Source: Clostridia bacterium
Lineage (GTDB): Bacteria; Bacillota; Clostridia; Oscillospirales; Acutalibacteraceae
Assembly: GCA_017414705.1 (NCBI GenBank)
Contig: JAFQKX010000077.1
Coordinates: 1-44,413 of the forward strand
Length of the DNA: 44,413 nucleotides
Direction of reading: 5' to 3'
The notes below the pieces were generated by a model that had not been told where the DNA came from, made no database searches, and saw only the letters and a list, made by a program, of their open reading frames with translations. Positions 15,249-34,548 of this stretch are shown piece after piece. The position numbers and the translations under genes were made by a program. Every line of letters starts with the position of its first letter. Positions within the stretch are counted from its first letter, which is position 1.

Positions 15249-15284
15249 TAATTTTGGTTATTTTGAGGAAAGGGGTTGAATCGT

Positions 15285-16775: not shown

Positions 16776-16792
16776 TGCGTGAATGAGGTGAT

Positions 16793-18646
16793 ATGATGGA
16801 AAACAATAATACCGTTGTCTATACCGATGAAGCAATGGAACGCGCAAAAAACATCAACCGCAAATTTGCGGTGGTTTCCGTCTGTGTGTTTTTGTCGCTG
16901 ATCCTGCTGCCGTCGATCGTTTGGGGAATTTTATCCCTTGCCGCGCCCGGATTGGTCAAAAAACTGGATTTTGACACCGGTGAAAACCGCAACAAGGTGC
17001 AGATGCCCGAGACCATTGACGTCTCGACTTTGACCTCCGATCTCGAATCCTATTATAATGACCGCGTTCCCTTCCGTTCGGTGTTGTATTTGTTGCAGAA
17101 AAATATGGAGAACGGGCTGGAGCAGCCGTATACCGACCACATCGTCCCGTTTTTCTCCAAGCTTCTGTACTCAAATCAAACCGATAAGGATCAGGCCAAT
17201 CAGGTTGAAGACAGCGTCAACAACCCGAACTTAGATCTGGATAATCTGTTTGGTAATACAGATTCCTCCGACGTGACTTCTTCTGACGTGACCTCCTCCG
17301 AACCGAAGCCCGAGCTTCCCCCGCTCCCCGAAACCGAGGTGAAAGACGAGGGCGATCAAGAATGTGAGCACGTTTTGGACAAAGGCACGGTTACCAAAAA
17401 AGCCACCTGCCTTGTATTTGGTGAAACCACTTATCGATGCACCAAGTGCGACTATACCAAAATCGAATATTCTCCGAAGGCTGACCACGATGATAAGGTC
17501 ATCAACAAGACTGACGCCACCTGCACCACGGACGGCACGCAGACGGTACAATGTAAAAACTGCAAGCGTGAGAAGACCTCCACCATATCCAAATTGGGAC
17601 ACAAGGAAATCTTCTCGCACACCTCTTTGCCCTCGTTGGATGATTACGGTTATGATCTGTACAAGTGCAAAAATTGCGCAATGCAGTGGAAAAAGAATAT
17701 CAAGAACAAGCTGGTCGATACCTCCTATCTGGCTCCGTTGCTCACGGGCCCTGCTGCCAAGAAAACCATCATCGGACGACGCGATTGGTTGTTCTTCACG
17801 GGCGACGGCGGAATCAACGCCTCCAACAACTGCGTTGATTACTATCGCGGAACCAACATCCTCTCCAATTCGACTATGTCGAGCTACCTCAACACCATGA
17901 ATCAGTTGAAGGCCATCTGCGATCAAAAAGGCATCAAGCTGGTGTTCTGCGTTATGCCCAACAAGGAGCAGGCGTACAGTGAATATATGCCGTATTATCC
18001 GATTTCCAATACGACGAAACGGTGCGTCATCTGGCGCAATTACGTCAAGAATAATTCCACGGTGCCGTTTGTCTATCCGCTTGAAGAGTTGACAACTTAC
18101 AAGCAATATTTCCAAACCTATTATAAGCACGACACCCATTGGAACACCGCCGGCGGCTTCGTCGGTCTGCAGGCCATTTACAAGGCCATCGGACTGCCCA
18201 CCACCGACCTGCGCGATCTGGTTTGGAAAGAAACCGTCAAGCGGGGCGACCAGATGTGGAAAGACCACGCTGTTGGAGACCTGTACAATATTGGTGGATT
18301 GGATAGCAAAAACTATTCCGACAAATACTATGACATCACCTATAAGCCTGAGGTCACAGTCAACGAACAGGTAATCAACACCAGCAACGGACGAATTTGG
18401 TTTACCACCTCGGATTCGCCCAACAAGCAGAAGATCGCCGTTTTGTCCGACTCCTTCAAGGATGCTATGGCACCCTTCATCCCCAAGGACTTTGCGTCTG
18501 CCATGATCACGCACCGCAGCAACTTTGGACGAGCGGATGTACAGGCTGCAGTTAAGGACGCTGACGTGTTGGTCGTTGCCGCAGTAGAGCGTTACGATAC
18601 CGCTATTATCTCCTGTGCACAGCAGTGCATTAATCTGCTGCGATAG
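16793..18646 (+). CDS. DHHW/AlgX-like SGNH-fold surface acetyltransferase partner with inserted Cys-rich repeats
   Basis: 617 residues: a short cytoplasmic end, a membrane anchor (about residues 25-50), and a DHHW/AlgX-type SGNH domain that would complete polymer O-acetylation outside the cell. Catalytic-domain marks are RRDWLFFTGDGG, the HDTHWN motif (near residue 446; the D-x-H-W signature) and AVLSDSFKDAM, which carries the likely nucleophile Ser. The domain is split by an acidic, Ser-rich linker (about residues 155-185) and a Cys-rich segment (about 190-305) with CxxC pairs such as CTKC, CKNC and CKNC plus His residues. That segment looks like two to three small zinc-ribbon-like repeats. 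Two adjacent ATGs (16793, 16796) follow GAGGTG. Confidence 0.87.
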   Translation: MMENNNTVVYTDEAMERAKNINRKFAVVSVCVFLSLILLPSIVWGILSLAAPGLVKKLDFDTGENRNKVQMPETIDVSTLTSDLESYYNDRVPFRSVLYLLQKNMENGLEQPYTDHIVPFFSKLLYSNQTDKDQANQVEDSVNNPNLDLDNLFGNTDSSDVTSSDVTSSEPKPELPPLPETEVKDEGDQECEHVLDKGTVTKKATCLVFGETTYRCTKCDYTKIEYSPKADHDDKVINKTDATCTTDGTQTVQCKNCKREKTSTISKLGHKEIFSHTSLPSLDDYGYDLYKCKNCAMQWKKNIKNKLVDTSYLAPLLTGPAAKKTIIGRRDWLFFTGDGGINASNNCVDYYRGTNILSNSTMSSYLNTMNQLKAICDQKGIKLVFCVMPNKEQAYSEYMPYYPISNTTKRCVIWRNYVKNNSTVPFVYPLEELTTYKQYFQTYYKHDTHWNTAGGFVGLQAIYKAIGLPTTDLRDLVWKETVKRGDQMWKDHAVGDLYNIGGLDSKNYSDKYYDITYKPEVTVNEQVINTSNGRIWFTTSDSPNKQKIAVLSDSFKDAMAPFIPKDFASAMITHRSNFGRADVQAAVKDADVLVVAAVERYDTAIISCAQQCINLLR

Positions 18647-18720: not shown

Positions 18721-19566
18721 TCAGGCTTCTTCGTCCGCAGGTCTGCCATTCTTTTCCTGCTGGGGAGACACGCCGAACCGCTTGCAGTAAGCACGGTAAA
18801 ATGTGGAATAATCATTGAATCCGCAATTTGTCGCTACCTTTTGCGCCGACATTCCGCCGCGCAGATAGTCCCTGGCTTCAATAAGCCGTTTGACGGTAAT
18901 ATAGTCACGCACCGACGTGCCGGTTGCCTGCTTGAAAATACGGCAAAGCTGAGAACGGCTGATAAAAAAGCGTTCACAGATGCGGTTGAGATCCAACGGA
19001 TCGTGCAAGTGACGATTGATATAGCGTATCATTCGTCCTGCAGTAGTGTCGTTATTTCCCGTGTCGATCGTTTCCTCGTCACGGCACAAAAAAATCTTGT
19101 ACAGCTCATTGAGCAGCGGAAACAGCGACGTGGTAATTTGCAGGCGCTGCGCGGTGGACGGCTTCTGAAAATTTCTCAAATACACCAAATGGTCGGGATC
19201 GCTGAAATCACTGTCGCGAAAACGATTCATATGTCCTGCTTCGCGATCGTAAAACGGCTTGAGCAAGGATCCTTCGGGATCAATTTGCTCTACCAGCTGC
19301 GGAGAAAAATGCAACACAGCGCGTTCGTACGGCTGAGAAGAATCCACACGAATATAATGTGATTCCGCCGGTCGCATAATCAAAATGTCGCCGCTTTGCA
19401 ACGGATACTGACTGCCTTCAATATGAAAAATCGCCTTGCCGGAATAAAAAAAACAGATCTCACATTCGTCGTGCGTATGCATCTTAAATGCATCCGAATC
19501 CGGTCGTTCATCCCGCGTGTGCGTAAAGCGAATATCGGAAAAAGAGCTCTCGTAAAGTATCGCCAT
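18721..19566 (-). CDS. AraC family transcriptional regulator (cupin sensor), hexuronate locus
   Basis: 281 residues. The N-terminal cupin sensor has the metal/ligand-type motif HTHDECEICFFYSGKAIFHIEG and later SGDILIMRPAESHYIRV. The C-terminal pair of helix-turn-helices has DLNRICERFFISRSQLCRIFKQATGTS and QKVATNCGFNDYSTFYRAYCKRFGVSPQQ. The ATG at 19566 has GGGAGGAGAA immediately upstream. The gene diverges from uxaC across a 142-base gap, so it is the likely regulator of the uronate operon. Its effector, probably a uronate or pathway intermediate, is inferred from position only. Confidence 0.9.
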   Translation of the reverse strand: MAILYESSFSDIRFTHTRDERPDSDAFKMHTHDECEICFFYSGKAIFHIEGSQYPLQSGDILIMRPAESHYIRVDSSQPYERAVLHFSPQLVEQIDPEGSLLKPFYDREAGHMNRFRDSDFSDPDHLVYLRNFQKPSTAQRLQITTSLFPLLNELYKIFLCRDEETIDTGNNDTTAGRMIRYINRHLHDPLDLNRICERFFISRSQLCRIFKQATGTSVRDYITVKRLIEARDYLRGGMSAQKVATNCGFNDYSTFYRAYCKRFGVSPQQEKNGRPADEEA

Positions 19567-19592
19567 TTCTTCTCCTCCCTCAATTTGATTGG

Positions 19593-19621
19593 AGTATAGC
19601 ATAAAACGAGACGATTTGCAA
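19593..19621 (-). promoter_or_regulatory. Promoter of the hexuronate-locus araC gene
   Basis: Minus-strand -35 TTGCAA (19616-19621) and -10 TATACT (19593-19598), spacing 17. Confidence 0.65.
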
Positions 19622-19643
19622 TATAATTTGCAACTTTTTGCAA
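19616..19643. repeat. Three TTGCAA copies in the araC-uxaC divergent gap
   Basis: TTGCAA occurs at 19616, 19628 and 19638 (start-to-start 12 and 10 bases, about one helical turn each). The first and third double as -35 elements of the two divergent promoters and the middle one has no such role. They are candidate AraC-regulator contacts, but TTGCAA also occurs at rpmB as a plain -35. Confidence 0.4.
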
Positions 19644-19667
19644 TTTTATTGTAACAGATTATATGAT
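19638..19667 (+). promoter_or_regulatory. Promoter of the hexuronate operon
   Basis: -35 TTGCAA (19638-19643) and -10 TATGAT (19662-19667), spacing 18, about 42 bases upstream of the uxaC start. An alternative -10, TACAAT, lies at 19667-19672. The non-ideal spacing fits an activator-dependent promoter. Confidence 0.5.
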
Positions 19668-19708
19668 ACAATAGTAAAAACATCTTTTATTAGGTAGGTG
19701 GACTTTTC

Positions 19709-22126: not shown

Positions 22127-22897
22127 ATGAAATTAGGCATTTGCACCAACAAAGATTTTGATGCGGTCGCCCGCGCCGGTTACGATTATATTGAGACTGC
22201 TTTTTGCCTGTTGGTCGAACAGAGCGCGGATGAATTTGCGGCCTACAAAAAATCGATCCTGGACACCGGGCTGAAGGCCGAGACCTTCAACTGCTTCTTC
22301 CGCGGCGACGTTGCGCTGGTGGGTGAAAAGGTAGATCTCAAGCTGATCGCGGACTTTACCCGCAAGGGTATGCAGCGTGCTGCGCAGTTAGGCGGTGAGG
22401 TTGCCGTCATCGGCAGCGGTGCAGCCCGTACCATTCCAGACAGCTGCGACCGCAAGCAAGCGGTAGAGCAATTTGCCTCGGTGTTGGATCTTTGCGCCGA
22501 CATTGCCGGTGAATACGGTATGAAGATCGTGGTGGAGCCGCTCAATGCCAAGGAGACGAATTTCGTCAATACCGTGACAGAGGGCTTGGAGCTTGCCCGC
22601 ATGGTCAACAACCCCAACGTAGGCGGTTTGGTGGATTTCTATCACGCACATCTGAGCGGAGAATCCTTGGAGACCGTTGAGACGGCAGGCGATGCTTTAT
22701 TTCACGCTCATTTGGCGCGCGCCAACGCTGACCGTGACATCCCCGTAACGTCTCAGGATCTGGAATATTGCAAGCGCTGGGCACAGGCGCTCAAAACCTG
22801 CGGTTATAACAAGCGCTTGAGTCTGGAATGCATCCATAGCAGAAGCTTTGAAGAATCGATTATTGCGGCACGGCCCGCGATGGAATTATTTCTTTAA
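22127..22897 (+). CDS. Sugar isomerase/epimerase-like TIM-barrel protein (tagatose-3-epimerase-like)
   Basis: 256 residues of the xylose-isomerase-like/AP-endonuclease-2 superfamily. The likely divalent-metal ligands are in the expected order: Glu in MKIVVEPLNAKETNFVNTV, Asp in GGLVDFYHAHLSG, His in FHAHLARAN and Glu in LSLECIHSRSFEE. A phosphate- or sugar-contact loop GSGAARTIPD is also visible. This arrangement resembles ketose 3-epimerases and hydroxypyruvate-isomerase-like proteins. It lies between uxuA and uxuB with 13- and 24-base gaps. Classical glucuronate breakdown needs no such enzyme, so it probably handles a related uronate or keto-sugar. The exact reaction is unknown. Confidence 0.82.
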   Translation: MKLGICTNKDFDAVARAGYDYIETAFCLLVEQSADEFAAYKKSILDTGLKAETFNCFFRGDVALVGEKVDLKLIADFTRKGMQRAAQLGGEVAVIGSGAARTIPDSCDRKQAVEQFASVLDLCADIAGEYGMKIVVEPLNAKETNFVNTVTEGLELARMVNNPNVGGLVDFYHAHLSGESLETVETAGDALFHAHLARANADRDIPVTSQDLEYCKRWAQALKTCGYNKRLSLECIHSRSFEESIIAARPAMELFL

Positions 22898-22921
22898 TTA
22901 TTTTGGAAGGGAAGTAAATTT

Positions 22922-23746
22922 ATGAGTAAAACGATCGTTATTACCGGCGCGGGCGGCATTCTGTGCTCCTCGTTTGCCAAGCATCTGGCAAAGGCGGGAC
23001 ACCGCATTGCCGTTTTGGATCTGAATATTGACGCCGCGCAGGCGGTTGCTGATGAAATTACGGCAGCCGGCGGCAAAGCCATTGCCTACAAGACCAACGT
23101 GTTAGACAAAGCAAATCTGCAGCAAGTCCACGATCAGATCGTCAAGGACTTGGGCAAATGTGAGATCCTCATCAACGGTGCCGGCGGCAACAATCCCAAG
23201 TGCACCACTAAAAACGAGACCTATCAGCCCGGTGACGAGAGCGCCGAGGATTATCTGACCTTCTTTAACATTGACGAAGCCGGATTTGACTTTGTCTTTG
23301 ACCTCAACCTCAAGGGCGTTTTGCTGCCCACGCAGGTCTTCCTGCCTGACATGCTGGGCGTTGCGGGCTGCTGCGTGCTCAACATTTCTTCCATGAACGC
23401 CTACCGTCCGTTGACCAAGATTCCCGCTTACAGCGCCGCAAAATCCGCGGTGGGCAACTTCACCCAATGGCTGGCGGTGCATTTTGCAGAGCAGAACATC
23501 CGCGTGAACGCCATTGCTCCCGGATTTTTCGTCACCAATCAGAACCGTGCCATGCTGTTCAACGCAGACGGCACCCCCACTCCCCGCACCGGCAAGATCC
23601 TTGCCGCTACGCCCATGAAGCGGTTTGGCGAGGCCGAGGAGCTGCTCGGCACGCTGGATTTCTTGTTGGATGAAACCAAAGCAGGCTTCGTAACCGGTAT
23701 TACCATTCCCGTGGACGGCGGCTTCTCCGCATACTCGGGCGTGTAA
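22922..23746 (+). CDS. uxuB: Short-chain-dehydrogenase-type fructuronate reductase (D-mannonate oxidoreductase)
   Basis: 274 residues of the SDR family. The nucleotide-binding glycine motif ITGAGGILCSSFAKHLA is followed by INGAGGNNPKCTT, catalytic Ser in LNISSMNAY and the YSAAK catalytic motif, with C-terminal GFVTGITIPVDGGFSAYSGV. The GAGGNNPKCTT segment and overall form match the Bacillus YjmF/UxuB-type enzymes that reduce fructuronate to mannonate. They are unrelated to the long-chain E. coli UxuB. The setting between uxuA and the KDG genes supports this. GGAAGGGAAG precedes the ATG. The substrate call depends on both similarity and context. Confidence 0.87.
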   Translation: MSKTIVITGAGGILCSSFAKHLAKAGHRIAVLDLNIDAAQAVADEITAAGGKAIAYKTNVLDKANLQQVHDQIVKDLGKCEILINGAGGNNPKCTTKNETYQPGDESAEDYLTFFNIDEAGFDFVFDLNLKGVLLPTQVFLPDMLGVAGCCVLNISSMNAYRPLTKIPAYSAAKSAVGNFTQWLAVHFAEQNIRVNAIAPGFFVTNQNRAMLFNADGTPTPRTGKILAATPMKRFGEAEELLGTLDFLLDETKAGFVTGITIPVDGGFSAYSGV

Positions 23747-23760
23747 AAAGGAGAAGAAAT

Positions 23761-24606
23761 ATGAGCAATATTCGCATTTTTGCATTTGCAGATGAATCCA
23801 GCCCTATGATCGATCAGCAGATCGTTGCCATGCACCGCAACGGTTTGCAGGGTCTTGAAATTCGTAACGTTGACAATGAGAATGTGTCCTTTATCTCCTT
23901 GGAAAAAGCAAAAGAAGTGCGCAAAAAAATGGACGATGCCGGACTGATCACCTGGTCTATCGGCTCGCCCATCGGCAAGATCGACATCGAAAAGGACGAC
24001 TTTGCAAAGCATTTGGACGTCTTCCGTCACACCTTGGAGCTTGCTGATATTCTGGGTGCGGAAAACATCCGCTTATTCTCCTTCTTCATTCCGGAAGGCA
24101 AAGATCCCGCCGATTACAAAAACGAGGTCATTGACCGTATGGGCGCTTTTGCCGACGCAGCGAAGGGCAGTAATGTAGTTTTGTGCCATGAGAATGAAAA
24201 AGGCATTTACGGCGATATGGCCAACCGTTGCCTTGAGGTTTTGCAGGCGGTTCCTTCCATCAAAGGAATTTTTGATCCCGCCAACTTTGTGCAATGCGGG
24301 CAGGACACTCTGCAGGCTTGGAACTTACTCAAGCCCTACATCAAGTATATGCACATCAAGGATGCGCTGGCAGACGGCAACGTTGTTCCCGCAGGTCAAG
24401 GCATCGGAAACGTCAAGCAGATCGTGGGCGACTTCATTGCCAACGGCGGCAAGGAATTTACGCTGGAACCGCACCTGGCGGTCTTTGCAGGTCTCAGCGC
24501 TCTGGAGCGCGAAAACGAAAAGAGCGTTGTAGGACATCAATTTGTTTACGAGAGCAACGAGCAGGCATTTGATGCTGCTTGCAATGCATTCAAGTGTCTT
24601 TTATAA
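23761..24606 (+). CDS. Sugar phosphate isomerase/epimerase-like TIM-barrel protein
   Basis: 281 residues starting MSNIRIFAFADESSPMIDQQIVAMHRNGLQGLEIR. This opening is typical of a subgroup of the xylose-isomerase-like TIM-barrel family found in gut Firmicutes near Gfo/Idh/MocA genes. Candidate metal ligands are VLCHENEKGIYGD (Glu), IKGIFDPANF (Asp), YMHIKDALADG (His) and FTLEPHLAVF (Glu). Its sequence is clearly different from the other two TIM-barrel proteins in this operon, so the three are not recent copies. It follows uxuB by 14 bases, with AAAGGAGAAG as ribosome site. Its substrate is not known. Confidence 0.82.
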   Translation: MSNIRIFAFADESSPMIDQQIVAMHRNGLQGLEIRNVDNENVSFISLEKAKEVRKKMDDAGLITWSIGSPIGKIDIEKDDFAKHLDVFRHTLELADILGAENIRLFSFFIPEGKDPADYKNEVIDRMGAFADAAKGSNVVLCHENEKGIYGDMANRCLEVLQAVPSIKGIFDPANFVQCGQDTLQAWNLLKPYIKYMHIKDALADGNVVPAGQGIGNVKQIVGDFIANGGKEFTLEPHLAVFAGLSALERENEKSVVGHQFVYESNEQAFDAACNAFKCLL

Positions 24607-24620
24607 CAAGGAGGTCTGTT

Positions 24621-25367
24621 ATGGATATCGGCGCTCAATTATTTACCGTGCGTGAATTTTGCAAAACACCCAAGGATCTTTCAGAGACTTTAAAAAAGGT
24701 TGCCGACATCGGATATGAAACGGTGCAGATTTCCGGCACCTGTGATTATGATCCATCTTGGCTGCGGGAGCAGCTGCAGCAAAACGGTCTGCGCTGTGTG
24801 CTTACGCACGTTGCCGCACAAAAGTTGGAACAAGATGCTGCTGCGGTTGCCCGCGATCACGATGTATTTGACTGTGATCTGGTTGGGCTGGGATATTTCC
24901 CTTTTTTTAATGAAAACCAGACCTCGCAGGATTTTATCCGTCGGTTTGGTCCGGTAGCAAAGACGCTGCAGGAAAACGGAAAGCATTTTTGCTATCACCA
25001 TCATGCGCACGAATTTGCCAAAGAAGACGGAAATCTGATCCTGCAGATCCTGTGCGATGCCTTCGACAAAGATGAATTATACATTACGGCAGACACCTAT
25101 TGGATGCAAGCCGGCGGCGTGAGTCCCGAACTTTGGTTAAAGAAGCTGTCCGGTCGTATTCCCTGCGTGCATTGTAAGGACATTTCTTTTGACCGAAAGA
25201 TGATGCCGGTCGGCGAGGGTAACCTCAACTGGGACGGCATTCTGTCAATTGCTCAGTCCTGCGGTACCCGTCATTTGTTGGTGGAGCAGGATGATTGTAA
25301 CGGCGAGGACCCGTTTGACTGTCTCAAGCGCAGTTTTTGTAATCTACGCGCAATGTTAGGACAATAA
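24621..25367 (+). CDS. Sugar phosphate isomerase/epimerase-like TIM-barrel protein (GAQLFTVR type)
   Basis: 248 residues starting MDIGAQLFTVREFCKTPKD, the opening of a third xylose-isomerase-like subgroup. Visible active-site blocks are LRCVLTHVAAQ, FCYHHHAHEFAKEDG, YITADTYWMQAGG, IPCVHCKDISFDRKMMPVGEGNLNWDGIL and LLVEQDDC. They carry the Glu/Asp/His/Glu metal set. Relatives often sit beside Gfo/Idh/MocA dehydrogenases, and some members of this superfamily act on 3-keto-sugars by epimerisation or beta-elimination. The ATG at 24621 follows AAGGAGGT. Two such dehydrogenases come directly after it. The function is a prediction only. Confidence 0.82.
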   Translation: MDIGAQLFTVREFCKTPKDLSETLKKVADIGYETVQISGTCDYDPSWLREQLQQNGLRCVLTHVAAQKLEQDAAAVARDHDVFDCDLVGLGYFPFFNENQTSQDFIRRFGPVAKTLQENGKHFCYHHHAHEFAKEDGNLILQILCDAFDKDELYITADTYWMQAGGVSPELWLKKLSGRIPCVHCKDISFDRKMMPVGEGNLNWDGILSIAQSCGTRHLLVEQDDCNGEDPFDCLKRSFCNLRAMLGQ

Positions 25368-25401
25368 TTTGAATCGAACCTGTATAAAAGGAGAATCCAT
25401 T

Positions 25402-26574
25402 ATGGAAAAGAAAATCAGACTTGGCATTATCGGTTTGGGCAATATGGGAACCGCTCACGCCAAAAATATTTTAGAAGGAAAATGTCCCGAGATCGTGATC
25501 ACCGCAGTGGCTGACCGCAACGAAGATCGCCTTAATTGGGCGAAAGAAAATCTGCCGGGTGTCACCTGCTTTACCGACCCCATTGAATTGATGGACAGCG
25601 GACTGGTAGACGGATGTCTCATCAGCGTGCCGCACTACGATCATCCCACCTACTCCATCGCCTGCATGCAGCGCGGTCTGCACGTCATGTGCGAAAAGCC
25701 TGCCGGCGTTTACACCAGGCAGGTGCGTGAAATGATTGCAGAATCCGAGAAGCATCCCGAGGTCGTTTTTGGTATGATGTTTAATCAGCGCACCAATCAT
25801 ATTTATCGCAAGATGCGCGAGCTGGTGCAGTCGGGCGACTACGGTCAGATCCGCCGCACCAACTGGATCATTACCGATTGGTACCGTCCGCAGTGCTATT
25901 ATGATTCGGGCGATTGGCGTGCAACCTGGAGCGGCGAGGGCGGCGGCGTGCTGCTCAACCAATGTCCGCATCAGCTGGATCTGTGGCAATGGATCTGCGG
26001 TATGCCGGTCAAGGTGCAGGCACATCTGCAGTTTGGAAAATGGCACGACATTGAGGTGGAGGACGACGTGACCACCTATGTGGAATATGCAAATGGTGCC
26101 ACCGGCGTATTTGTGACCACCACGGGCGATGCGCGCGGCACCAACCGCTTTGAGATCCAGATGGACAAAGCAAAAATCGTTGCAGAAGGCAATGATCTCA
26201 AAGTCATCGAATTTGACGTCAGCGAGCCTGAATTCTCCAAGACCAACGAACAACCGTTTGGCAATCTGACCTCGCACAATCTTGAAATCGTGACGGATGG
26301 TAAAAACGAGCAGCACGTTGGCGTGCTCAACGCTTGGGCAGGCGCCATTCTGCGCGGTGAGCCGCTGGTGGCTGCAGGTGCAGAGGGCATCAACGGTCTG
26401 ACGCTGTCCAACGCCATGCATTTGTCCGCCTTCCTGGGCAAGGCGGTGGAGCTGCCGTTTGATGAGGATCTGTATTACGAAGAGCTGATGAAGCGCGTTG
26501 CCACCTCCCGCCGCAAGACCAATGTCAAGGCGGTCGTAGCTGACACCAGCGCTTCTTATGCGGGCAATCAATAA
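25402..26574 (+). CDS. Gfo/Idh/MocA family oxidoreductase (copy 1)
   Basis: 390 residues of an NAD(P)-dependent sugar/polyol dehydrogenase family. The Rossmann motif is LGIIGLGNMGTAHAKNILE, the catalytic-Lys motif is MCEKPAG, and GGGVLLNQCPHQLDLWQWICGMP carries the likely catalytic His. The C-terminal domain contains YVEYANGATGVFVTTTGD. The ATG at 25402 has AAAAGGAG upstream. It shares long identical blocks with the next gene, so the two are tandem paralogues. Family members oxidise a sugar hydroxyl, often at C3 of glucosides, or inositol. No such step occurs in the standard glucuronate route. Confidence 0.88.
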   Translation: MEKKIRLGIIGLGNMGTAHAKNILEGKCPEIVITAVADRNEDRLNWAKENLPGVTCFTDPIELMDSGLVDGCLISVPHYDHPTYSIACMQRGLHVMCEKPAGVYTRQVREMIAESEKHPEVVFGMMFNQRTNHIYRKMRELVQSGDYGQIRRTNWIITDWYRPQCYYDSGDWRATWSGEGGGVLLNQCPHQLDLWQWICGMPVKVQAHLQFGKWHDIEVEDDVTTYVEYANGATGVFVTTTGDARGTNRFEIQMDKAKIVAEGNDLKVIEFDVSEPEFSKTNEQPFGNLTSHNLEIVTDGKNEQHVGVLNAWAGAILRGEPLVAAGAEGINGLTLSNAMHLSAFLGKAVELPFDEDLYYEELMKRVATSRRKTNVKAVVADTSASYAGNQ

Positions 26575-26603
26575 TCCGTATCGGGATCAAAAGGAAGATC
26601 TTT

Positions 26604-27779
26604 ATGCAAACAATACGTATCGGCATCATCGGAATCGGCAACATGGGAACCGCTCATGCTGCCTGCTTGGCACAAAATAAAATTGACGCTATGGTTCTGA
26701 CTGCCGTTTGTGACGTCCGTGAAGAACGATTGGAGTACTGCCGACAAAACTATCCGCAGGTACAGACCTTCCGCGATTATCGCGAGCTGTTGGACAGCGG
26801 TTTAGTGGACGCAGTACTGATCGCAGTACCGCACCGCCTGCATTCGAAAATTGCCATTGAGGCGTTTGAGGCAGGATTGCACGTGCTGACCGAAAAACCG
26901 GCCGACGTTTCGGTTTCTGCCGCACGCAGACTCAACGAGGCGGCGCAAAAAAGCGGAAAAGTCTTTGGTATTATGTTCAATCAACGCACCAATCCCCTGT
27001 TCTGCAAAGCGCGTGAATTGGTGCAAAGCGGTGCATTGGGCGCACTCAAGCGCAGCGTTTGGGTGGTGACCAACTGGTACCGCACGCAGCATTATTACGA
27101 CTCCGGCAGCTGGCGCGCAACCTGGAATGGTGAGGGCGGCGGCGTGCTGCTCAATCAGGCTCCGCATAATTTGGATCTGTGGCAATGGATCTGCGGTATG
27201 CCCGTGAGCGTTACTGCGTTTTGCGACGTTGCAAAATATCATCATATTGAGGTAGAAGACGATGTCACCCTTTTTGCCCGCTATGAAAACGGTGCAACGG
27301 GGTTGTTCGTGACCTCTACGGGAGAATATCCCGGCACCAACCGTCTTGAAATCTCCGGAGAACGCGGAAAGCTGGTACTGGAAAACGGCGTTCTGAAATG
27401 GTGGGATCTTGGAGAAAGCGAAGCAGACGTCCGTTTTTGCTCGCAAGAAAATTTCCCGTCAATCGAATGCAAGTATCAAGAGTTTACGCAGGATGCGCCC
27501 GAAACCGCACATGCAGGCATTTTGCAAAATTTTGCAAATGCCGTTTTAACGGGAGAAGCCTTGATTTCTCCCGGTTATGAGGGCATCAAAGAATTGACCC
27601 TTTCCAATGCCGCTTACCTGTCGCAATGGAACGGCAATATAGCCATTGACCTTCCCTTTGACGAATCGGAGTTTGACCGACTGTTGGCTCAACACGCCGA
27701 GACCTCTGACTGCAAAGAAAAGGCCGGTGTCTCACACAATCACACAGACTATGACCAACGCTGGCAAGTGCGCTGGTAA
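26604..27779 (+). CDS. Gfo/Idh/MocA family oxidoreductase (copy 2)
   Basis: 391 residues, paralogous to the gene just upstream. Both have GNMGTAHA in the Rossmann motif, an EKPA catalytic-Lys motif (TEKPADV here), FGIMFNQRTN-type and YYDSGSWRATWNGEGGGVLLNQ segments, and LDLWQWICGMPV. They differ mainly in the second half (ISGERGKLVLENGVLKWWDLG here), which shapes the substrate pocket. This suggests different substrates or opposite directions in an oxidation/reduction cycle. The C-terminus extends past the paralogue's end with HNHTDYDQRWQVRW. It sits 29 bases after copy 1 and 31 bases before the eda start. Confidence 0.88.
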   Translation: MQTIRIGIIGIGNMGTAHAACLAQNKIDAMVLTAVCDVREERLEYCRQNYPQVQTFRDYRELLDSGLVDAVLIAVPHRLHSKIAIEAFEAGLHVLTEKPADVSVSAARRLNEAAQKSGKVFGIMFNQRTNPLFCKARELVQSGALGALKRSVWVVTNWYRTQHYYDSGSWRATWNGEGGGVLLNQAPHNLDLWQWICGMPVSVTAFCDVAKYHHIEVEDDVTLFARYENGATGLFVTSTGEYPGTNRLEISGERGKLVLENGVLKWWDLGESEADVRFCSQENFPSIECKYQEFTQDAPETAHAGILQNFANAVLTGEALISPGYEGIKELTLSNAAYLSQWNGNIAIDLPFDESEFDRLLAQHAETSDCKEKAGVSHNHTDYDQRWQVRW

Positions 27780-28455: not shown

Positions 28456-29474
28456 AACGAGTCATTACTTTTGGTGAATTGATGCTACGCTTGGCGCCCG
28501 AGGGCTATCTGCGCTTTGCACAGGCCGAAAAATTCCAGGCAACCTTCGGCGGCGGCGAAGCCAATGTTGCCGTCTCTCTGGCAAACTACGGCGTGGATGC
28601 CGCTTTTGTCAGTAAGTTCCCCACCCACGAGATCGGTCAGATGGCGGTCAACTCTCTGCGCAAATACGGTGTTGATACCTCGCTGATCGTACGCGGCGGC
28701 AACCGTGTCGGCGTTTATTACGTAGAAAAGGGCGCTTCGCAGCGTCCCTCCAAGGTCATTTATGACCGTGCCGATTCTGCGATCGCACAGGCATCGGCTG
28801 CTGATTTTGATTGGGATCACATTTTTGAGGGTGCTGATTGGTTCCACTTTACCGGCATCACGCCGGCTCTGGGCGACAATGTTGCTGAGATCTGCCTGCA
28901 GGCACTCAAGGCTGCCAAGGCACACGGTCTGACCGTCAGCTGCGATCTCAACTACCGCAAAAAGCTGTGGACCCGCGAAAAGGCCGGCGAGGTCATGGGC
29001 AAACTGATGCAGTACGTGGACGTTTGCATTGCCAATGAAGAAGATGCTGCAGACGTGTTTGGCATTCATGCTGCCAACACCGACATCAACAGCGGCAAGG
29101 TGGATCACGAGGGCTACAAGGATGTTGCCCGTCAGCTCAAGGAGCGTTTTGGCTTCTCGCACGTTGCCATCACACTGCGCGGCTCTATTTCCGCCAACGA
29201 CAACGACTGGGCCGCTATGCTGTATGACGGCAACGACTATTACTTCTCCCGCCAGTACCGCGTGCACATCGTGGACCGCGTGGGCGGCGGCGACAGCTTT
29301 GGCGGCGGACTGATCTACGCCATGCTGGACGGCAGAGATCCGCAGGCAGTCATTGAGTTTGCCGTTGCGGCAAGCTGCCTGAAGCACTCCATTGAGGGCG
29401 ATTACAACCTGATGAGTGTAGCAGAAGTCGAGAGTTTGGCAGGCGGCAACGCCAGCGGACGCGTACAACGCTAA
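28452..29474 (+). CDS. kdgK: 2-dehydro-3-deoxygluconate kinase (KdgK), PfkB family
   Basis: KdgK phosphorylates KDG to KDPG, the substrate of the aldolase encoded immediately before. The 340-residue PfkB/ribokinase-type protein has the N-terminal ITFGELMLRLAPEG and FGGGEANVAVSLANYG substrate motif. The C-terminal VDRVGGGDSFGGGLIYAML carries the anion hole and catalytic Asp. The ribosome site AAAGGAG lies in the eda end. It is the last gene of the operon and is followed by a strong terminator. The KDG assignment rests on the family opening and pathway context. Confidence 0.94.
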   Translation: MKRVITFGELMLRLAPEGYLRFAQAEKFQATFGGGEANVAVSLANYGVDAAFVSKFPTHEIGQMAVNSLRKYGVDTSLIVRGGNRVGVYYVEKGASQRPSKVIYDRADSAIAQASAADFDWDHIFEGADWFHFTGITPALGDNVAEICLQALKAAKAHGLTVSCDLNYRKKLWTREKAGEVMGKLMQYVDVCIANEEDAADVFGIHAANTDINSGKVDHEGYKDVARQLKERFGFSHVAITLRGSISANDNDWAAMLYDGNDYYFSRQYRVHIVDRVGGGDSFGGGLIYAMLDGRDPQAVIEFAVAASCLKHSIEGDYNLMSVAEVESLAGGNASGRVQR

Positions 29475-29487
29475 CCGATCTAAAACG

Positions 29488-29529
29488 AAAGAAGGCTTTG
29501 CACGGTTTGTGCAAGGCCTTCTTTGTTTT
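29488..29529. terminator. Terminator between kdgK and the second araC gene
   Basis: A 16-bp stem (AAAGAAGGCTTTGCAC/GTGCAAGGCCTTCTTT, one G-T pair) with a 5-base loop is followed by GTTTTT. It can serve both convergent genes. Confidence 0.88.
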
Positions 29530-29532
29530 TGC

Positions 29533-30339
29533 TCAAAGATAGGTTTCTTTACGGTACTGCGCGGGGGTGATACCTTTTGCTTTTTTAAAAACACGGCAAA
29601 AATATTGCAGGGTGGAAAATCCGCTTTGCTTGGCGCACTCTTCCAGAGTCAGGAACGGATATTTCATCAGGCTTTCCGCCTGCTTCAGGCGGGCGTTCAC
29701 AATATACTGCGATGGTGAAATGCCGTATAAGGTCTTGAATAGCTTTCTGAAATAAACCTCGCTGACGTTGCCCAATTCAGCAAGCCGAGAAACACTCAAG
29801 GTATGATCCGAGAAATTAATATCAATATGCGCTTTGATTTGTTCAAGCTTTTTGAGGACTGATTTTTCCAGATACTGACTGTTTACGAAAAACTGAACAA
29901 TACCGTAGATCTGATATAACAGCGACATTTCTTCCGGAAACGAATGACCTGTGGGATTCTGATGACACCGCAGCAGGCGGCGAAACAAGGTCCGCGCCTC
30001 GGAGGTGTCCTGCGGCGAATAGACGTCACTTTTTCTCGGGATATCATGATCGAAGGAGAAATCGCAAAAAATAAAATGATAGTTTTCGGTCAGCAGCGTC
30101 ATCTCATAGATCGCTTGATCCGCAAGATAAAGGATATCTCCTTCCCTCACCGTGAACCGTGTTCCGTCATCAAACTGATATTGGCAGCTTCCCGAAAGGA
30201 TATAAACAAAAGCATCGCTGTGCCGTCCGTTGACAATATGGCGGGCAGCGCTTTTTTGCATTTGCGAACGAATCACAAGAATCCGCTTTTTGATATACAG
30301 AGGTTGTACCGCAATGTCGGTTTTCTCCAAGCAAATCAC
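29533..30339 (-). CDS. AraC family transcriptional regulator, divergent from the glycyl radical enzyme
   Basis: About 268 residues: an N-terminal cupin-like sensor (ARHIVNGRHSDAFVYILSG, VREGDILYLADQAIYEM) and a C-terminal AraC DNA-binding domain (SVSRLAELGNVSEVYFRKLFKTLYGISPSQY and LEECAKQSGFSTLQYFCRVFKKAKG). The start is uncertain. GTG at 30339 gives the longest form but has no ribosome site, and GGAG lies inside the first codons, nine bases before an ATT. Because the gene diverges from the glycyl-radical-enzyme operon, it is its likely regulator. It shares only the fold with the other AraC protein in this window. Confidence 0.85.
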   Translation of the reverse strand: MICLEKTDIAVQPLYIKKRILVIRSQMQKSAARHIVNGRHSDAFVYILSGSCQYQFDDGTRFTVREGDILYLADQAIYEMTLLTENYHFIFCDFSFDHDIPRKSDVYSPQDTSEARTLFRRLLRCHQNPTGHSFPEEMSLLYQIYGIVQFFVNSQYLEKSVLKKLEQIKAHIDINFSDHTLSVSRLAELGNVSEVYFRKLFKTLYGISPSQYIVNARLKQAESLMKYPFLTLEECAKQSGFSTLQYFCRVFKKAKGITPAQYRKETYL

Positions 30340-30363
30340 CCAATCAATTCGTTTTATATAAAT

Positions 30364-30392
30364 ATTATAATATTAAAAAACCATCTTTTCAA
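30364..30392 (-). promoter_or_regulatory. Promoter of the second araC gene
   Basis: Minus-strand -35 TTGAAA (30387-30392) and -10 TATAAT (30364-30369), spacing 17. It predicts a transcript with only about 18-20 bases before the GTG. Confidence 0.65.
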
Positions 30393-30442
30393 GGTCTTTT
30401 CTAATATTTGTTTCGGAAAGTATAAAATTTCTTTTTTTGACA

Positions 30443-30471
30443 TTTACTTTTTCTTTTGAAACGAGTATGCT
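30443..30471 (+). promoter_or_regulatory. Possible weak promoter of the glycyl radical enzyme operon
   Basis: TTTACT (30443-30448) and TATGCT (30466-30471), spacing 17, each match consensus at four of six positions. An isolated TTGACA lies at 30437-30442 but at the wrong distance. Weak elements would fit activation by the divergent AraC protein. Confidence 0.35.
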
Positions 30472-30511
30472 ATTATTAAGAGCAGAGCCCATCTCAAAGG
30501 AGTGAATTGAT

Positions 30512-32587
30512 ATGGCCGTTTACCAAGCTGAATTATTAGAGATCGGTCGTCAGTACTTGAAGAACGATGCAAAGGACGGCGTGCTAAAGGTTAACAGTGA
30601 TATTATCATTGATTGTATGCAAAATTGCAAACTTTTGTTTGCCCCTGAAAACCGTTTCTTTTGTACGGTCGACTGTGACGGCCTTGTGCGCGATCTGCAC
30701 TTTATCCGTACGCAACAATATAACGATGAATTGGAGCGCCTTGGGCTGCAGGACGGTCAGGAGGCTCTGGCGCATACCGGCGGTCCCGATATCGGACATA
30801 CCTGTGCGCACTGGGAAAGCATCATTCCGCTGGGCATCTTTGGCTTGAGAGAACGCATTGTGCAATACCGTGATCTGCACGGCAAAACCGAAAAAAAGAA
30901 AGCGTTTTACGATGAACTTTTGCGGGTCTACGATGCAGCGTTACGATTTATGCTTCGGGCGGCAGATGCAGCTGATGCCAACGGAAATCACGAAATGGCG
31001 CGAAGCCTTCGCGTCCTGACGCAGCGTTCGCCAAGCACCCTGTTTGAAGCCATGCAGACCTCCTTGATCTATTACGTGCTGCAGCAGATGTTTGACGGCA
31101 CGGTACTGCGCACCATGGGACGGATAGACCAATTATTTTATCCGTTTTACCGTAATGAAGATGCAGACACCGCAAAAACGCTGGTTGAGGCGTACTTGCA
31201 AGAGATCAATGCATTGGCTCCCACCGCCAACATTCCCTTCGCATTGGGCGGAACCGATCCCGACGGAAACAGTCTGGTCAACGAGCTTTCCTATCTGTTT
31301 TTATCCTGCTACGGCAAGGCGCATCTGCCCGACACGAAGCTGCATCTTTATTGTTCCAAAAATACGCCGAACGAGTTCATTGAGCAAGGATTGGACTGCG
31401 TCAGAAACGGCAATAACAGCATCGTATTTTTGTCGAATGAGGCCGTGATTGCGTCACTCAAAAAACTGGGAGCACAGCATAACGACGCCGTCAATTATCA
31501 CGTAGTGGGCTGTTATGAATGCGGTGCCGAGCAGGAGTTGACCTGCTCGTGCAACGCTCGCGTCAATCTGCCCAAGGCGTTGGAGCTTGCGCTCAACAAC
31601 GGTCGGGATATGTTGACCGGTAAAAAGATCGGTTTGGAAAACGACGGTACCTTTCCTTCGTTTGAAGCAGTATTTACGGAATTTTTGCGGCAGGTCGAGT
31701 ATCTGTGCAAATGCGCAATAAAAATCACCGATCTGCACGAAATGCATTATGCTCAAACCCACGCGGCGCCTATTATGACGGCGACTTATCCGCACGCTTT
31801 GGAGCAGGGCGGAGACCTCTACGGTGACAATGCCGCAAAATACAACAACTCTTCCCTCAACGCCATCGGCTTGGCAACCGCAACCGATTCCCTTGCCGCG
31901 ATCCGTAAATTGGTTTTTGAAGAAAAACAAATGACCATGGATCAACTCATCCAACTGTTAAAGACGGATTGGGCAGAGCATGAGGCGCTACGGCTGATGA
32001 TCCGAAATAAGTATCCGAAGTACGGAAACGCAGATCCCGCCATCGACACGATTGCGCAAAAAACGGTCGATTTTTTATCCCGTACCGTCAGCGGGCACCC
32101 CAACAAAAAGGGCGGCGTTTATCGGTTAGGACTGTTTTCCATTGATTGGCGTTGGCAGATGGGAGAAAAAACCGCCGCTTCTGCTGACGGACGTCTTGCG
32201 GGACAGCCGTTGTCTCAAAACAGCGGAGCCACCTTCGGAGCTGACCGCTCGGGTGCAACCGCTCATCTGATCTCCGTCGCCAGCCTGGATTCCTCTGGCG
32301 TACCAAACGGCCTGATCGTAGATCTGGATCTGCATTCCTCCTGCGTGAGGGGAGAAAACGGTTTGCAGGCATTTACCGGACTGCTGCGTTCGTATTTTAC
32401 GTTGGGCGGCTTTGCGGTGCATTGCAACGTCTTGGATACCGAAACGCTGAAAAAAGCCAAAGAAGATCCGGCTGCCTATCCGAATCTGCAGGTGCGTCTG
32501 TGCGGGTGGAATGTGTTGTTCTCCTCGCTTTCCGACAAAGAAAAGGACGAATTTATTGCGCGATCGATCCAACAAGGGAGTCTGTAA
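30512..32587 (+). CDS. Glycyl radical enzyme of the pyruvate formate-lyase superfamily, unknown substrate
   Basis: 691 residues, shorter than most characterised members (roughly 750-850). Superfamily marks are RSPSTLFEAMQTSLIYYV, MGRIDQLFYPFYR, the thiyl-radical loop VGCYECGAEQE (C334 with E336) followed by NLPKALELALNNGRD, ASADGRLAGQPLSQNSG, and the C-terminal radical site VRLCGWNVLF (G665). The Cys-x-Glu arrangement is that of eliminases/dehydratases such as diol, choline or hydroxyproline enzymes, not the Cys-Cys of true pyruvate formate-lyase. The radical loop is unusual (Cys before and Trp after the Gly). The ribosome site is AAAGGAG. The activase gene follows one base after the stop. 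The substrate is unknown. Confidence 0.9.
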   Translation: MAVYQAELLEIGRQYLKNDAKDGVLKVNSDIIIDCMQNCKLLFAPENRFFCTVDCDGLVRDLHFIRTQQYNDELERLGLQDGQEALAHTGGPDIGHTCAHWESIIPLGIFGLRERIVQYRDLHGKTEKKKAFYDELLRVYDAALRFMLRAADAADANGNHEMARSLRVLTQRSPSTLFEAMQTSLIYYVLQQMFDGTVLRTMGRIDQLFYPFYRNEDADTAKTLVEAYLQEINALAPTANIPFALGGTDPDGNSLVNELSYLFLSCYGKAHLPDTKLHLYCSKNTPNEFIEQGLDCVRNGNNSIVFLSNEAVIASLKKLGAQHNDAVNYHVVGCYECGAEQELTCSCNARVNLPKALELALNNGRDMLTGKKIGLENDGTFPSFEAVFTEFLRQVEYLCKCAIKITDLHEMHYAQTHAAPIMTATYPHALEQGGDLYGDNAAKYNNSSLNAIGLATATDSLAAIRKLVFEEKQMTMDQLIQLLKTDWAEHEALRLMIRNKYPKYGNADPAIDTIAQKTVDFLSRTVSGHPNKKGGVYRLGLFSIDWRWQMGEKTAASADGRLAGQPLSQNSGATFGADRSGATAHLISVASLDSSGVPNGLIVDLDLHSSCVRGENGLQAFTGLLRSYFTLGGFAVHCNVLDTETLKKAKEDPAAYPNLQVRLCGWNVLFSSLSDKEKDEFIARSIQQGSL

Positions 32588-32588
32588 T

Positions 32589-33476
32589 ATGAAGGGAATC
32601 ATTTCCGGCATCAAGCGCATGGAGATCCACGACGGCGCAGGACTGCGCACCACGGTATTTTTCAAGGGATGTCCGCTGCGGTGTATTTGGTGTCATAACC
32701 CCGAAAGTCTTTCCCCCGCACCGCAGATTGCTTTTTTTGAAGCCAAATGCTGCGGTTGCGGCAGCTGCAAGCTCGTTTGCCCCGAAGAAGCGGCAGACGG
32801 CGGAGTCGATTTTTCCAAATGCAGTCAATGTCTGCAATGCGCGCAGGTTTGCCCGACCGGTGCGCTGACGATCTACGGGCAGGAATATGAAGCAGATGAG
32901 CTCGCAGAACTGCTAATGCAGGACGCTGTGTTTTTTGAAACCAGCGGCGGCGGTGTAACGCTGTCGGGCGGAGAATGCTTAATGCAACCCGATTTTGCAG
33001 TAGAATTGGCACAAAAGCTACGCCAAAAAGGCATCAGCGTTGACGTAGACACCTGCGGCTTTTTGGCGCGCAGCGCGCTGGAGCGTATTCTGCCCTACAC
33101 CGATGAATTTTTGTACGATCTCAAGGCAATTGATGCACAGGTGCACCGAAAATGTACGGGGCAGGATAACACCGTTATTTTGGAAAACCTCAAATTTTTG
33201 CTGCAACACGGTTGTAAGGTCGAGATCCGTTATCCGTTGGTGGTTGGCTTTAACGACGGTGAATGCCAAAAGATCGGGCAATTTTTGCAGGATCTTAAAT
33301 TTACCGGAAAGATCAAGGTTTTGCAGTATCATTCCTTTGCAAAATCACGGTATACGGCGTTGGGCATACCCGATTCCCTGCCCGACACCGAAACAACGTT
33401 TGAGGACGTTGCCAATGCGGTAGAAATTCTGAAAGCATACGGTCTCAACGCCGTCAACGGCATTACAGAGGATTAA
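32589..33476 (+). CDS. Glycyl-radical enzyme activating enzyme (radical SAM)
   Basis: 295 residues that use S-adenosylmethionine and a [4Fe-4S] cluster to install the glycyl radical on the partner encoded upstream. The radical SAM motif is GCPLRCIWCHNPES (C28, C32, C35). A ferredoxin-like insert follows with two cluster motifs (C54/C57/C60/C64 and C78/C81/C84/C88), and then SGGGVTLSGGECLMQ. The ferredoxin insert is typical of activases of eliminase-type enzymes and absent from the short pyruvate formate-lyase activase. The ATG at 32589 sits after AAGGGAG in the end of the partner gene. A terminator follows. Confidence 0.94.
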   Translation: MKGIISGIKRMEIHDGAGLRTTVFFKGCPLRCIWCHNPESLSPAPQIAFFEAKCCGCGSCKLVCPEEAADGGVDFSKCSQCLQCAQVCPTGALTIYGQEYEADELAELLMQDAVFFETSGGGVTLSGGECLMQPDFAVELAQKLRQKGISVDVDTCGFLARSALERILPYTDEFLYDLKAIDAQVHRKCTGQDNTVILENLKFLLQHGCKVEIRYPLVVGFNDGECQKIGQFLQDLKFTGKIKVLQYHSFAKSRYTALGIPDSLPDTETTFEDVANAVEILKAYGLNAVNGITED

Positions 33477-33477
33477 A

Positions 33478-33515
33478 AAAACGGATTCGAAGCAGTCTTG
33501 CTTCGAATCCGTTTT
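33478..33515. terminator. Terminator between the activase and the SGNH lipoprotein gene
   Basis: A 17-bp perfect stem (AAAACGGATTCGAAGCA/TGCTTCGAATCCGTTTT) with a 4-base loop ends in T-rich sequence. It is symmetrical, so it can act on both convergent transcripts. Confidence 0.9.
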
Positions 33516-33526
33516 CTGTTGTTCCC

Positions 33527-34360
33527 TTATAAAGTCTGCATCCAATTGGCAATGAAGGGAGTCAGGCGTTCATAGCCGGTTGCATTTGGATGCACAGGAT
33601 CACGCAGGCAAATATTTGTAGTTACCTGCATAACGGTGTTACTGATATAATCGTCAAAATACAAATCCAGATACGGAATCTCCCATTTATCACAGATCTG
33701 CTTGGCAACTTCCCAATATTCTTTCATATCAGAGACCTGATTCCACTCCTTGGAAGCATTTGGCATATAAAAAGAGATAATAAAACCGAATTTTGCATTG
33801 GGAAAATACTGTTTGGCGTGATAAATAGTCTCTTCAAAGCCACCCGCAAAAGTATTTCGATCAAAATCCTCAACGTCAAAAGAATCGCTCATGGTACCTA
33901 CCTGTGCATAAACAGGGCCGCCGGGATGACCTGCGGCATCGTTGACACCGCCCTGCAAAATGACGTAATCATAGGTGTTTTGCTGCACCTTTTCCAATTG
34001 GTGCAGGATGCGCCACTGATCGCCGCGAGTCGTAGAAAAGCAATATCCGCCCAACGCCTGATTGTCCGCTTCTTCGAGGTCGCATCGCTTAGCAATGCGT
34101 CCTGCCCATGCGTATCCCTTGACGGTATCCCATTCACCGTAGCAAATCGAATCTCCACAGAATAAAACCTTTTTTCCTTTCAGATTATTAACAGCTTGCG
34201 AAGCAGCTTGAGACGAGACTGCCTCACTACTAGCCGAAATAACACTGCTTTCAGCCATTTCAGATGATGAAACCATAGACGATACCTCCTCTTCGGAACA
34301 TGCCGACATCAACATTAAAAAAATCATGCAAAGCAAAAAACAAACTGTTTTTCTGATCAT
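33527..34360 (-). CDS. SGNH/GDSL-type hydrolase lipoprotein
   Basis: 277 residues with a lipoprotein signal peptide (hydrophobic residues 5-19, lipobox ending at C21), a Ser/Ala/Glu-rich spacer to about residue 58, and an SGNH hydrolase domain. Block I is VLFCGDSICYGEW (Ser71), block III is ILQGGVNDAA, and block V is DPVHPNATGYERL (Asp and His). Such enzymes are surface esterases that often remove acetyl groups from carbohydrates. The ATG at 34360 has AGAGGAG upstream. A protein-like fragment ends 8 bases before it on the same strand. The substrate is unknown. Confidence 0.88.
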   Translation of the reverse strand: MIRKTVCFLLCMIFLMLMSACSEEEVSSMVSSSEMAESSVISASSEAVSSQAASQAVNNLKGKKVLFCGDSICYGEWDTVKGYAWAGRIAKRCDLEEADNQALGGYCFSTTRGDQWRILHQLEKVQQNTYDYVILQGGVNDAAGHPGGPVYAQVGTMSDSFDVEDFDRNTFAGGFEETIYHAKQYFPNAKFGFIISFYMPNASKEWNQVSDMKEYWEVAKQICDKWEIPYLDLYFDDYISNTVMQVTTNICLRDPVHPNATGYERLTPFIANWMQTL

Positions 34361-34365
34361 ATTAA

Positions 34366-34548
34366 TTACTCCTCTCTCTGCAATTCCCATTGTTCGATGG
34401 AATGCAGCGTTACATCAGCACCGAGTGCCGTCAGCGTAATACCCGTACTGTCTGCGCGGGAAGGCATCTTTTGCATACAGCGTCCTTCTTTCACTCTTCT
34501 CTGCTCTATTGTCCTTGGGGTGCAAGGTACACTCACACCGCGACAGCT
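34366..34548 (-). pseudogene. Possible C-terminal remnant of a secreted or carbohydrate-active protein
   Basis: The 380-base gap 34361-34740 holds a start-less reading frame, open for 61 codons on the minus strand. Its last residues (MPSRADSTGITLTALG, then DVTLHSIEQWELQREE) look like the end of a beta-sandwich domain such as those closing GH32-type glycosidases. There is no start codon with a ribosome site and no upstream domain, so at most a gene stump is left. The likeness is from memory of the family pattern and is unproven. The rest of the gap holds only the GNAT promoter and AT-rich sequence. Confidence 0.35.

Follow-up and report, generated by a model that had tools for sequence, protein, structure and literature searches.

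A short glycyl radical enzyme with a Cys-Gly-Trp-Asn radical loop, its activase and an AraC-type gene in a clostridial genome

Introduction

Glycyl radical enzymes (GREs) have repeatedly explained gut chemistry for which an enzyme had been missing, as with choline, hydroxyproline, isethionate and skatole, and their textbook radical loop reads R-V-A-G-Y. The stretch of DNA considered here (hereafter the window) is the entire 44,413-nucleotide contig JAFQKX010000077.1 of a 1.04-Mb genome bin from a member of the Clostridia (GCA_017414705.1), estimated to be 70% complete, and it encodes a GRE, an oxygen-sensitive radical enzyme, on its forward strand at 30512-32587.

The closest described counterpart is the trans-4-hydroxy-L-proline dehydratase HypD (6VXC), the best PDB match and nearly the best NCBIfam match, with which the window GRE has in common the Cys-x-Glu motif, the beta-1 His, the radical Gly and a ferredoxin-type activase. 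The two are, however, only about 27% identical, and the window GRE scores 303.4 bits on NF043068 against a cut-off of 1100, whereas labelled HypDs of the same order reach 1415-1506 bits. B12-independent glycerol/1,2-propanediol dehydratases (GD, PD; 1R8W, 5I2A, 9RCO) likewise have Cys-x-Glu and a beta-1 His of the GD His164 type, but the position of GD His281 is Val198 in the window GRE and they occupy a separate clade in the tree. Escherichia coli YbiW and PflD, 1,5-anhydrohexitol-6-phosphate enzymes by their PDB titles, also have Cys-x-Glu and the His, at 24% identity and on a separate branch. The GRE fold and Cys-x-Glu extend to the choline TMA-lyase CutC (TIGR04394, 208 bits against a cut-off of 1050; the CutC Asp216 site is His96 in the window GRE), to the DHPS dehydratases HpsG/HpfG (251-253 bits against 1000) and to the isethionate sulfite-lyase IslA, whose Gln193 site is again His96. 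PFL differs in its Cys-Cys motif, where the window GRE has G333-C334, and in score (TIGR01255, 99 bits against 994). Archaeoglobus fulgidus PflD (2F3O) resembles the window GRE in carrying Trp after the radical Gly, within RVAGWS, but has Ala before the Gly and Ser after the Trp. Aminoacyl radical enzymes, a family treated in PMC11528403, have Ala, Ser or Thr in place of the Gly that is retained here.

The gene, the protein and its clade

The GRE gene runs from ATG 30512 to TAA 32587, has a ribosome-binding site in its upstream sequence (aaaggag, about 30497-30503, forward strand) and encodes 691 aa. Residues 334-336 of the translated ORF are C-Y-E and residues 660-669 are QVRLCGWNVL, which places the radical Gly at Gly665 within R-L-C-G-W-N; the length, the Cys334-Tyr-Glu336 loop and the Cys and Trp on either side of Gly665 are thus as the original prediction had described them. 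Pfam scores of 308.6 bits for the PFL-like domain (cut-off 24.3) and 62.7 bits for Gly_radical (cut-off 22.2) lie so far above their cut-offs that the domain matches are not chance. Similarities in NCBIfam and the PDB are exclusively to GREs, with the eliminases HypD, GD and PD as the best, and the protein exceeds the cut-off of none of the NCBIfam equivalog models. Cys334 and Gly665 align with C434 and G765 of HypD. An AlphaFold2 model built on an alignment of five sequences is of low confidence (mean pLDDT 59, loops below 50, Gly loop below 40); the 41 best structures in a fold search with this model were all GREs, and a scan of viral contigs for a deeper alignment returned one fragment.

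The protein is some 90 aa shorter than classical GREs and, by comparison with HypD, lacks about 16 N-terminal residues, a run of 36 beyond residue 55, another of 14 beyond residue 243 and a number of shorter segments. In the alignment these gaps recur throughout a group of 36 GREs with the loop R-[LV]-C-G-W-N (the CGWN clade), which forms a single clade with support 100 in a tree that includes PFL, HypD, CutC, GD, PD, 9RCO, YbiW, PflD and A. fulgidus PflD as references. When the tree was rebuilt without the loop and all residues after it, the same clade was recovered, again with support 100, so the grouping is not circular on the loop. Membership of the window protein in the GRE superfamily and in this clade is very probable. 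The clade lies apart from PFL, HypD, CutC, PD/GD, YbiW and PflD, with A. fulgidus PflD outside it too, and clusters tightly with no characterised GRE of the tree; for GREs that were not among the references (IslA, HpsG, HplG, N-methyl-hydroxyproline dehydratases, HPAD and BSS), PDB and/or NCBIfam scores were all below that of HypD. The clade is surrounded by further GREs, short in many cases and with other loops, among which is none of the references (branch 95). The radical loop had been called unusual, and it does depart from R-V-(S/A)-G-(Y/F), but R-L-C-G-W-N is the rule within a large clade and its Trp is also present in 2F3O.

Close relatives are 51-64% identical to the window GRE, with complete members of 682-692 aa; they come from MAGs bearing the label Oscillospiraceae, one of goat-caecum origin, and from genomes of several families. 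Distribution is patchy: among the genomes sampled from the window's own family, a close relative is present only in the window's genome, and outside the class there was only one weak match across 398 genomes of the phylum. More distant relatives (31-43% identity) keep R-[LV]-C-G-W-N and, except at locus L067, GCYE. The CGWN GREs are an uncharacterised group of ruminant-gut and related clostridia. In the literature searched, which lay mostly outside subscription journals, no paper joins CGWN with glycyl radical, and earlier notice, for example in GRE similarity networks, is possible. Recurrent in gut and rumen clostridia and with clear hallmarks, the clade offers a unit small enough to express and assay.

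A probably separate unit beside a uronate operon

Upstream of the GRE is a uronate operon (uxaC, uxuA, mannonate oxidoreductase, KDG kinase and KDPG aldolase), which appears to end in an intrinsic-terminator-like hairpin of 17 pairs with a T tail at 29488-29524 on the forward strand. On the reverse strand at 29533-30339, divergent from the GRE as had been predicted, Pfam identifies an AraC-type regulator with a cupin-like N-terminal sensor, and between the two genes is an AT-rich divergent promoter region of 172 bp (30340-30511). A sigma-70-like site is present here at 30392-30364 on the reverse strand, and a promoter scan of this region gave no more matches than shuffled sequence. The activase gene (32589-33476, forward strand, ATG 32589 to TAA 33476, 295 aa) starts one base after the GRE stop, its ribosome-binding site (aagggag) sitting within the 3' end of the GRE gene, and a symmetric 17-pair hairpin at 33478-33515, a probable terminator, follows directly on the activase stop. 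GRE and activase are probably co-transcribed from the divergent promoter between terminators on both sides, and from the position of the AraC-type gene we infer that it controls the GRE promoter. GC3 is 0.52-0.58 in the AraC-type, GRE and activase genes against 0.67-0.70 in uxaC, uxuA, KDG kinase and GroEL, suggesting that the GRE unit was perhaps acquired separately from its neighbours; together with the terminators and the opposite-strand AraC-type gene, this makes the unit look transcriptionally separate. Long reverse-strand ORFs in the window, such as that at 28485-29594, were rejected as genes and regarded as shadows of GC-rich coding DNA. Beyond the activase, and convergent with it, is a gene for a GDSL/SGNH-hydrolase-like protein with a lipoprotein-type signal (33527-34390, reverse strand).

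The original prediction placed the GRE directly after the uronate operon and took this location as a suggestion of a substrate derived from a sugar acid or polyol. The first statement is right as to position, but a 17-pair terminator and an opposite-strand gene intervene; the second has fared less well. If the enzyme dehydrated a sugar acid derived from uronates, in concert with the neighbouring operon, this would account for the location, for an Arg350 that might bind the carboxylate and for the few relatives that are found near GH28 or GH78 genes. Such a role is nonetheless unlikely, given the separate transcription unit with its own regulator and its lower GC3, the uronate operon having an AraC-type gene of its own (18724-19683, with an AraC_binding domain) divergent from and upstream of it. 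Glucuronate isomerase UxaC, moreover, is no commoner in hosts of the clade (9/14) than among genomes of the order (168/290), and four of the five hosts that lack it are at least 90% complete. No other near-clade locus adjoins a uronate operon, and among those annotated none has uronate-catabolism genes beside the GRE. A specific tie between the GRE and the adjacent uronate genes is not supported. As an observation on the operon itself, its stretch at 22127-27779 also holds three xylose-isomerase-like TIM barrels and two Gfo/Idh/MocA oxidoreductases, beyond the needs of glucuronate breakdown, and it may also handle oxidised glycosides. Further upstream, at 15276-18646, an AlgX/SGNH-like protein comes after an MBOAT acyltransferase, the two forming an exopolysaccharide O-acetylation pair.

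What does travel with the GRE is limited. Across 12 near-clade loci with 81 neighbouring proteins, an activase is adjacent in 11 and AraC-type genes number 10, with every other family present at most three times; AraC (18) and activase (14) dominate the neighbours of the wider clade too, and AraC-type homologues flank most CGWN GREs. As a control, small and not position-matched, 94 proteins were taken from arbitrary regions of these genomes; among them the AraC and activase families each matched at most once. Close relatives retain AraC-GRE-activase while other neighbours change, and beyond those two families the near clade has no conserved neighbour that would indicate a substrate. Glycoside hydrolases of GH10, GH78 and GH42 were considered as a substrate clue and set aside because they recur only weakly near clade GREs and are common in such genomes. 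Microcompartment-associated GREs have shell genes beside them; the original prediction saw none near this one, and none was found in the whole of the window's 70%-complete genome, which is one of nine clade hosts out of 14 without shell genes, those of the other five being on other contigs and never beside the GRE. The recurrence of AraC and activase alone, the location of shells elsewhere and the lack of a uronate association all point to a single-enzyme unit that has its own sensor and whose product would need no dedicated partner.

Active site and reaction class

Roles of the catalytic residues follow the HypD structure paper (PMC7077986), and the common beta-1 substrate site of GREs is named in PMC8473560. 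In the alignment the window GRE keeps the catalytic set of His96 (HypD H160, GD H164), Cys334, Glu336 and Gly665; His96 is present in 13/13 near relatives, as are Cys334 and Glu336, and the catalytic residues are nearly invariant over the 36 members. The residues with which HypD holds its substrate are, in contrast, all changed or deleted: Asp278 (V198 in the window GRE), Lys326, Ser334 (a gap), Asp339 (A239), Phe340 (N240), Tyr450 (R350) and Thr645 (I544). Asp93, Arg200, Lys276, Asp604, Gln660, Cys664, Trp666 and Asn667 are, singly or combined, specific to the clade, and Arg350 and Trp546-Arg547-Trp548 to the near relatives. Arg200 is found in 36/36 members of the CGWN clade and is absent from all other GREs compared, accompanied by Asp93 wherever that stretch is present, and the pair may merely be a structural salt bridge between neighbouring strands. 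Position 350 is R or K in all 15 members of at least 42% identity and aligns with the Arg of the PFL motif GAR-x-N, which we take to be E. coli Arg435, the ligand of the pyruvate carboxylate. Of the clues at hand, Arg350 points most clearly to an anionic substrate, a suggestion that remains tentative at somewhat under even odds; in the wider clade the position varies (Y, K, T, G, S), so Arg350 may make no substrate contact.

The original prediction treated Cys-x-Glu with a ferredoxin-type activase as the mark of an eliminase, which is too strong, as the arylacetate decarboxylases HPAD and IAD share both features: in indoleacetate decarboxylase the motif is Cys500-x-Glu502 and the activase is of the 8-Cys type (PMC6181972). 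Its proposal of an eliminase or dehydratase from a clade with an undescribed substrate accordingly keeps its latter half, there being no characterised clade member in the tree and no NCBIfam equivalog passed, and loses the marker rule. Elimination is favoured instead by the beta-1 partner His96, standing alongside C334-Y-E336, and by a similarity ranking in which HypD, GD and PD come above HPAD and IAD; an eliminase is the better bet, and a reasonably good one. A role as decarboxylase or C-C lyase, similar to that of the arylacetate decarboxylases and with Arg350 perhaps holding the carboxylate, has the shared motif and activase type to its credit, but with the eliminase beta-1 His conserved and with HPAD and IAD models giving 192 and 150 bits (cut-offs 1150 and 1100) against 303 for HypD it is improbable, to much the same degree as a uronate dehydratase. 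Slightly less probable again is action on a sugar derivative that is phosphorylated or cyclic, like the 1,5-anhydrohexitol 6-phosphates of YbiW and PflD, with Arg200, Lys276 and Arg350 holding a phosphate: the solved complexes show that GREs act on such sugars and several relatives are near glycoside hydrolases, but the clade is separate from both enzymes in the tree (about 24% identity) and neither a kinase nor a PTS gene accompanies the unit. That the protein is a degenerate or inactive paralogue, as its loop unlike R-V-A-G-Y and its shortfall of about 90 aa might suggest, is very improbable: the catalytic residues hardly vary among the 36 members, and most loci retain a paired activase. The GRE is real and probably functional.

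The best explanation of the whole is a self-contained, AraC-controlled radical unit that performs an elimination on a small hydroxylated anion, to which we assign a probability of about 0.5. In such a unit the substrate is predicted to induce expression through the AraC-type regulator, and the activase would cleave SAM and take the alpha-hydrogen of Gly665, whose radical would pass to Cys334. The resulting thiyl radical would pull a hydrogen from the hydroxylated substrate, Glu336 and the beta-1 His96, paired as in HypD and GD, would handle the hydroxyl proton, and the leaving group on the next carbon, most likely OH, would be expelled before the radical returned. More speculatively, Arg350 would bind a carboxylate or other anionic group. 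Neither an aldehyde dehydrogenase, nor a shell, nor a dedicated dehydrogenase travels with the unit, and the product is therefore probably one that central metabolism can use directly; a 2-oxo acid is an example, though as a specific identity it is rather unlikely. It is also conceivable, at a little short of even chances, that GREs with the R-[LV]-C-G-W-N loop make up a class of new function, marked by a short barrel, a Cys-Gly-Trp-Asn loop and, at the active site, Cys-Tyr-Glu together with Arg200/Arg350; they would carry out on an anionic substrate a reaction unlike that of any characterised GRE, and their activases would differ in the number of auxiliary clusters even between close homologues.

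Apparent reduction of the activase ferredoxin domain

The window activase scores 302.8 bits on TIGR02494, a GRE activase subfamily model, above its cut-off, and combines the radical-SAM motif CPLRCIWC (CX3CX2C) with two complete CX2CX2CX3C motifs, CCGCGSCKLVC and CSQCLQCAQVC, in agreement with the two extra ferredoxin motifs predicted for it. Both motifs are kept in the window activase and in L043, whereas 11 of the 14 activases nearest to the window's have a single C-x2-C-x2-C...C set; a single set also occurs in the wider-clade activases L025, L029 and L056 and in E. coli PflC (L069), the activase of PflD. In an activase tree made without the ferredoxin segment, starred branches force at least four changes and the best tree nine, many branches being weak. 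By these cysteine patterns, the ferredoxin domain of CGWN-clade activases (window 32589-33476, L003, L005, L037-L043 and L062) appears to have been reduced repeatedly from two motifs to one 4-Cys set, where one motif would, by Cys count, correspond to one cluster. The role of the auxiliary clusters of GRE activases is unknown according to PMC11528403 and PMC10239695, and close homologues with one or two of them therefore constitute a natural experiment on cluster function, by which the question becomes directly testable.

Variant enzymes within and around the clade

Several further GREs among the loci compared depart from the common pattern. At L067 (1483-3774, reverse strand) a member of the CGWN clade has Cys-Trp-Asp in place of Cys-Tyr-Glu. 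The GREs of L073 and L075 have Cys-Val-Val for Cys-x-Glu and Glu at the position of the beta-1 His, and their best matches are to the CutC model, below its cut-off. Local expansions of GRE genes are evident at L078 (G394:C69, 3994-15726), where five short tandem genes on the same strand stand beside one GRE activase gene, and at L079 (G367:C166, 1524-8059), with three such genes and one GRE activase gene. Finally, the short GREs L051 15797-17872 and L086 2239-4236 combine the loop R-I-W-G-W-S with Cys-Trp-Glu and carry Asn in place of the beta-1 His, and the activases paired with them show unusual Cys spacing.
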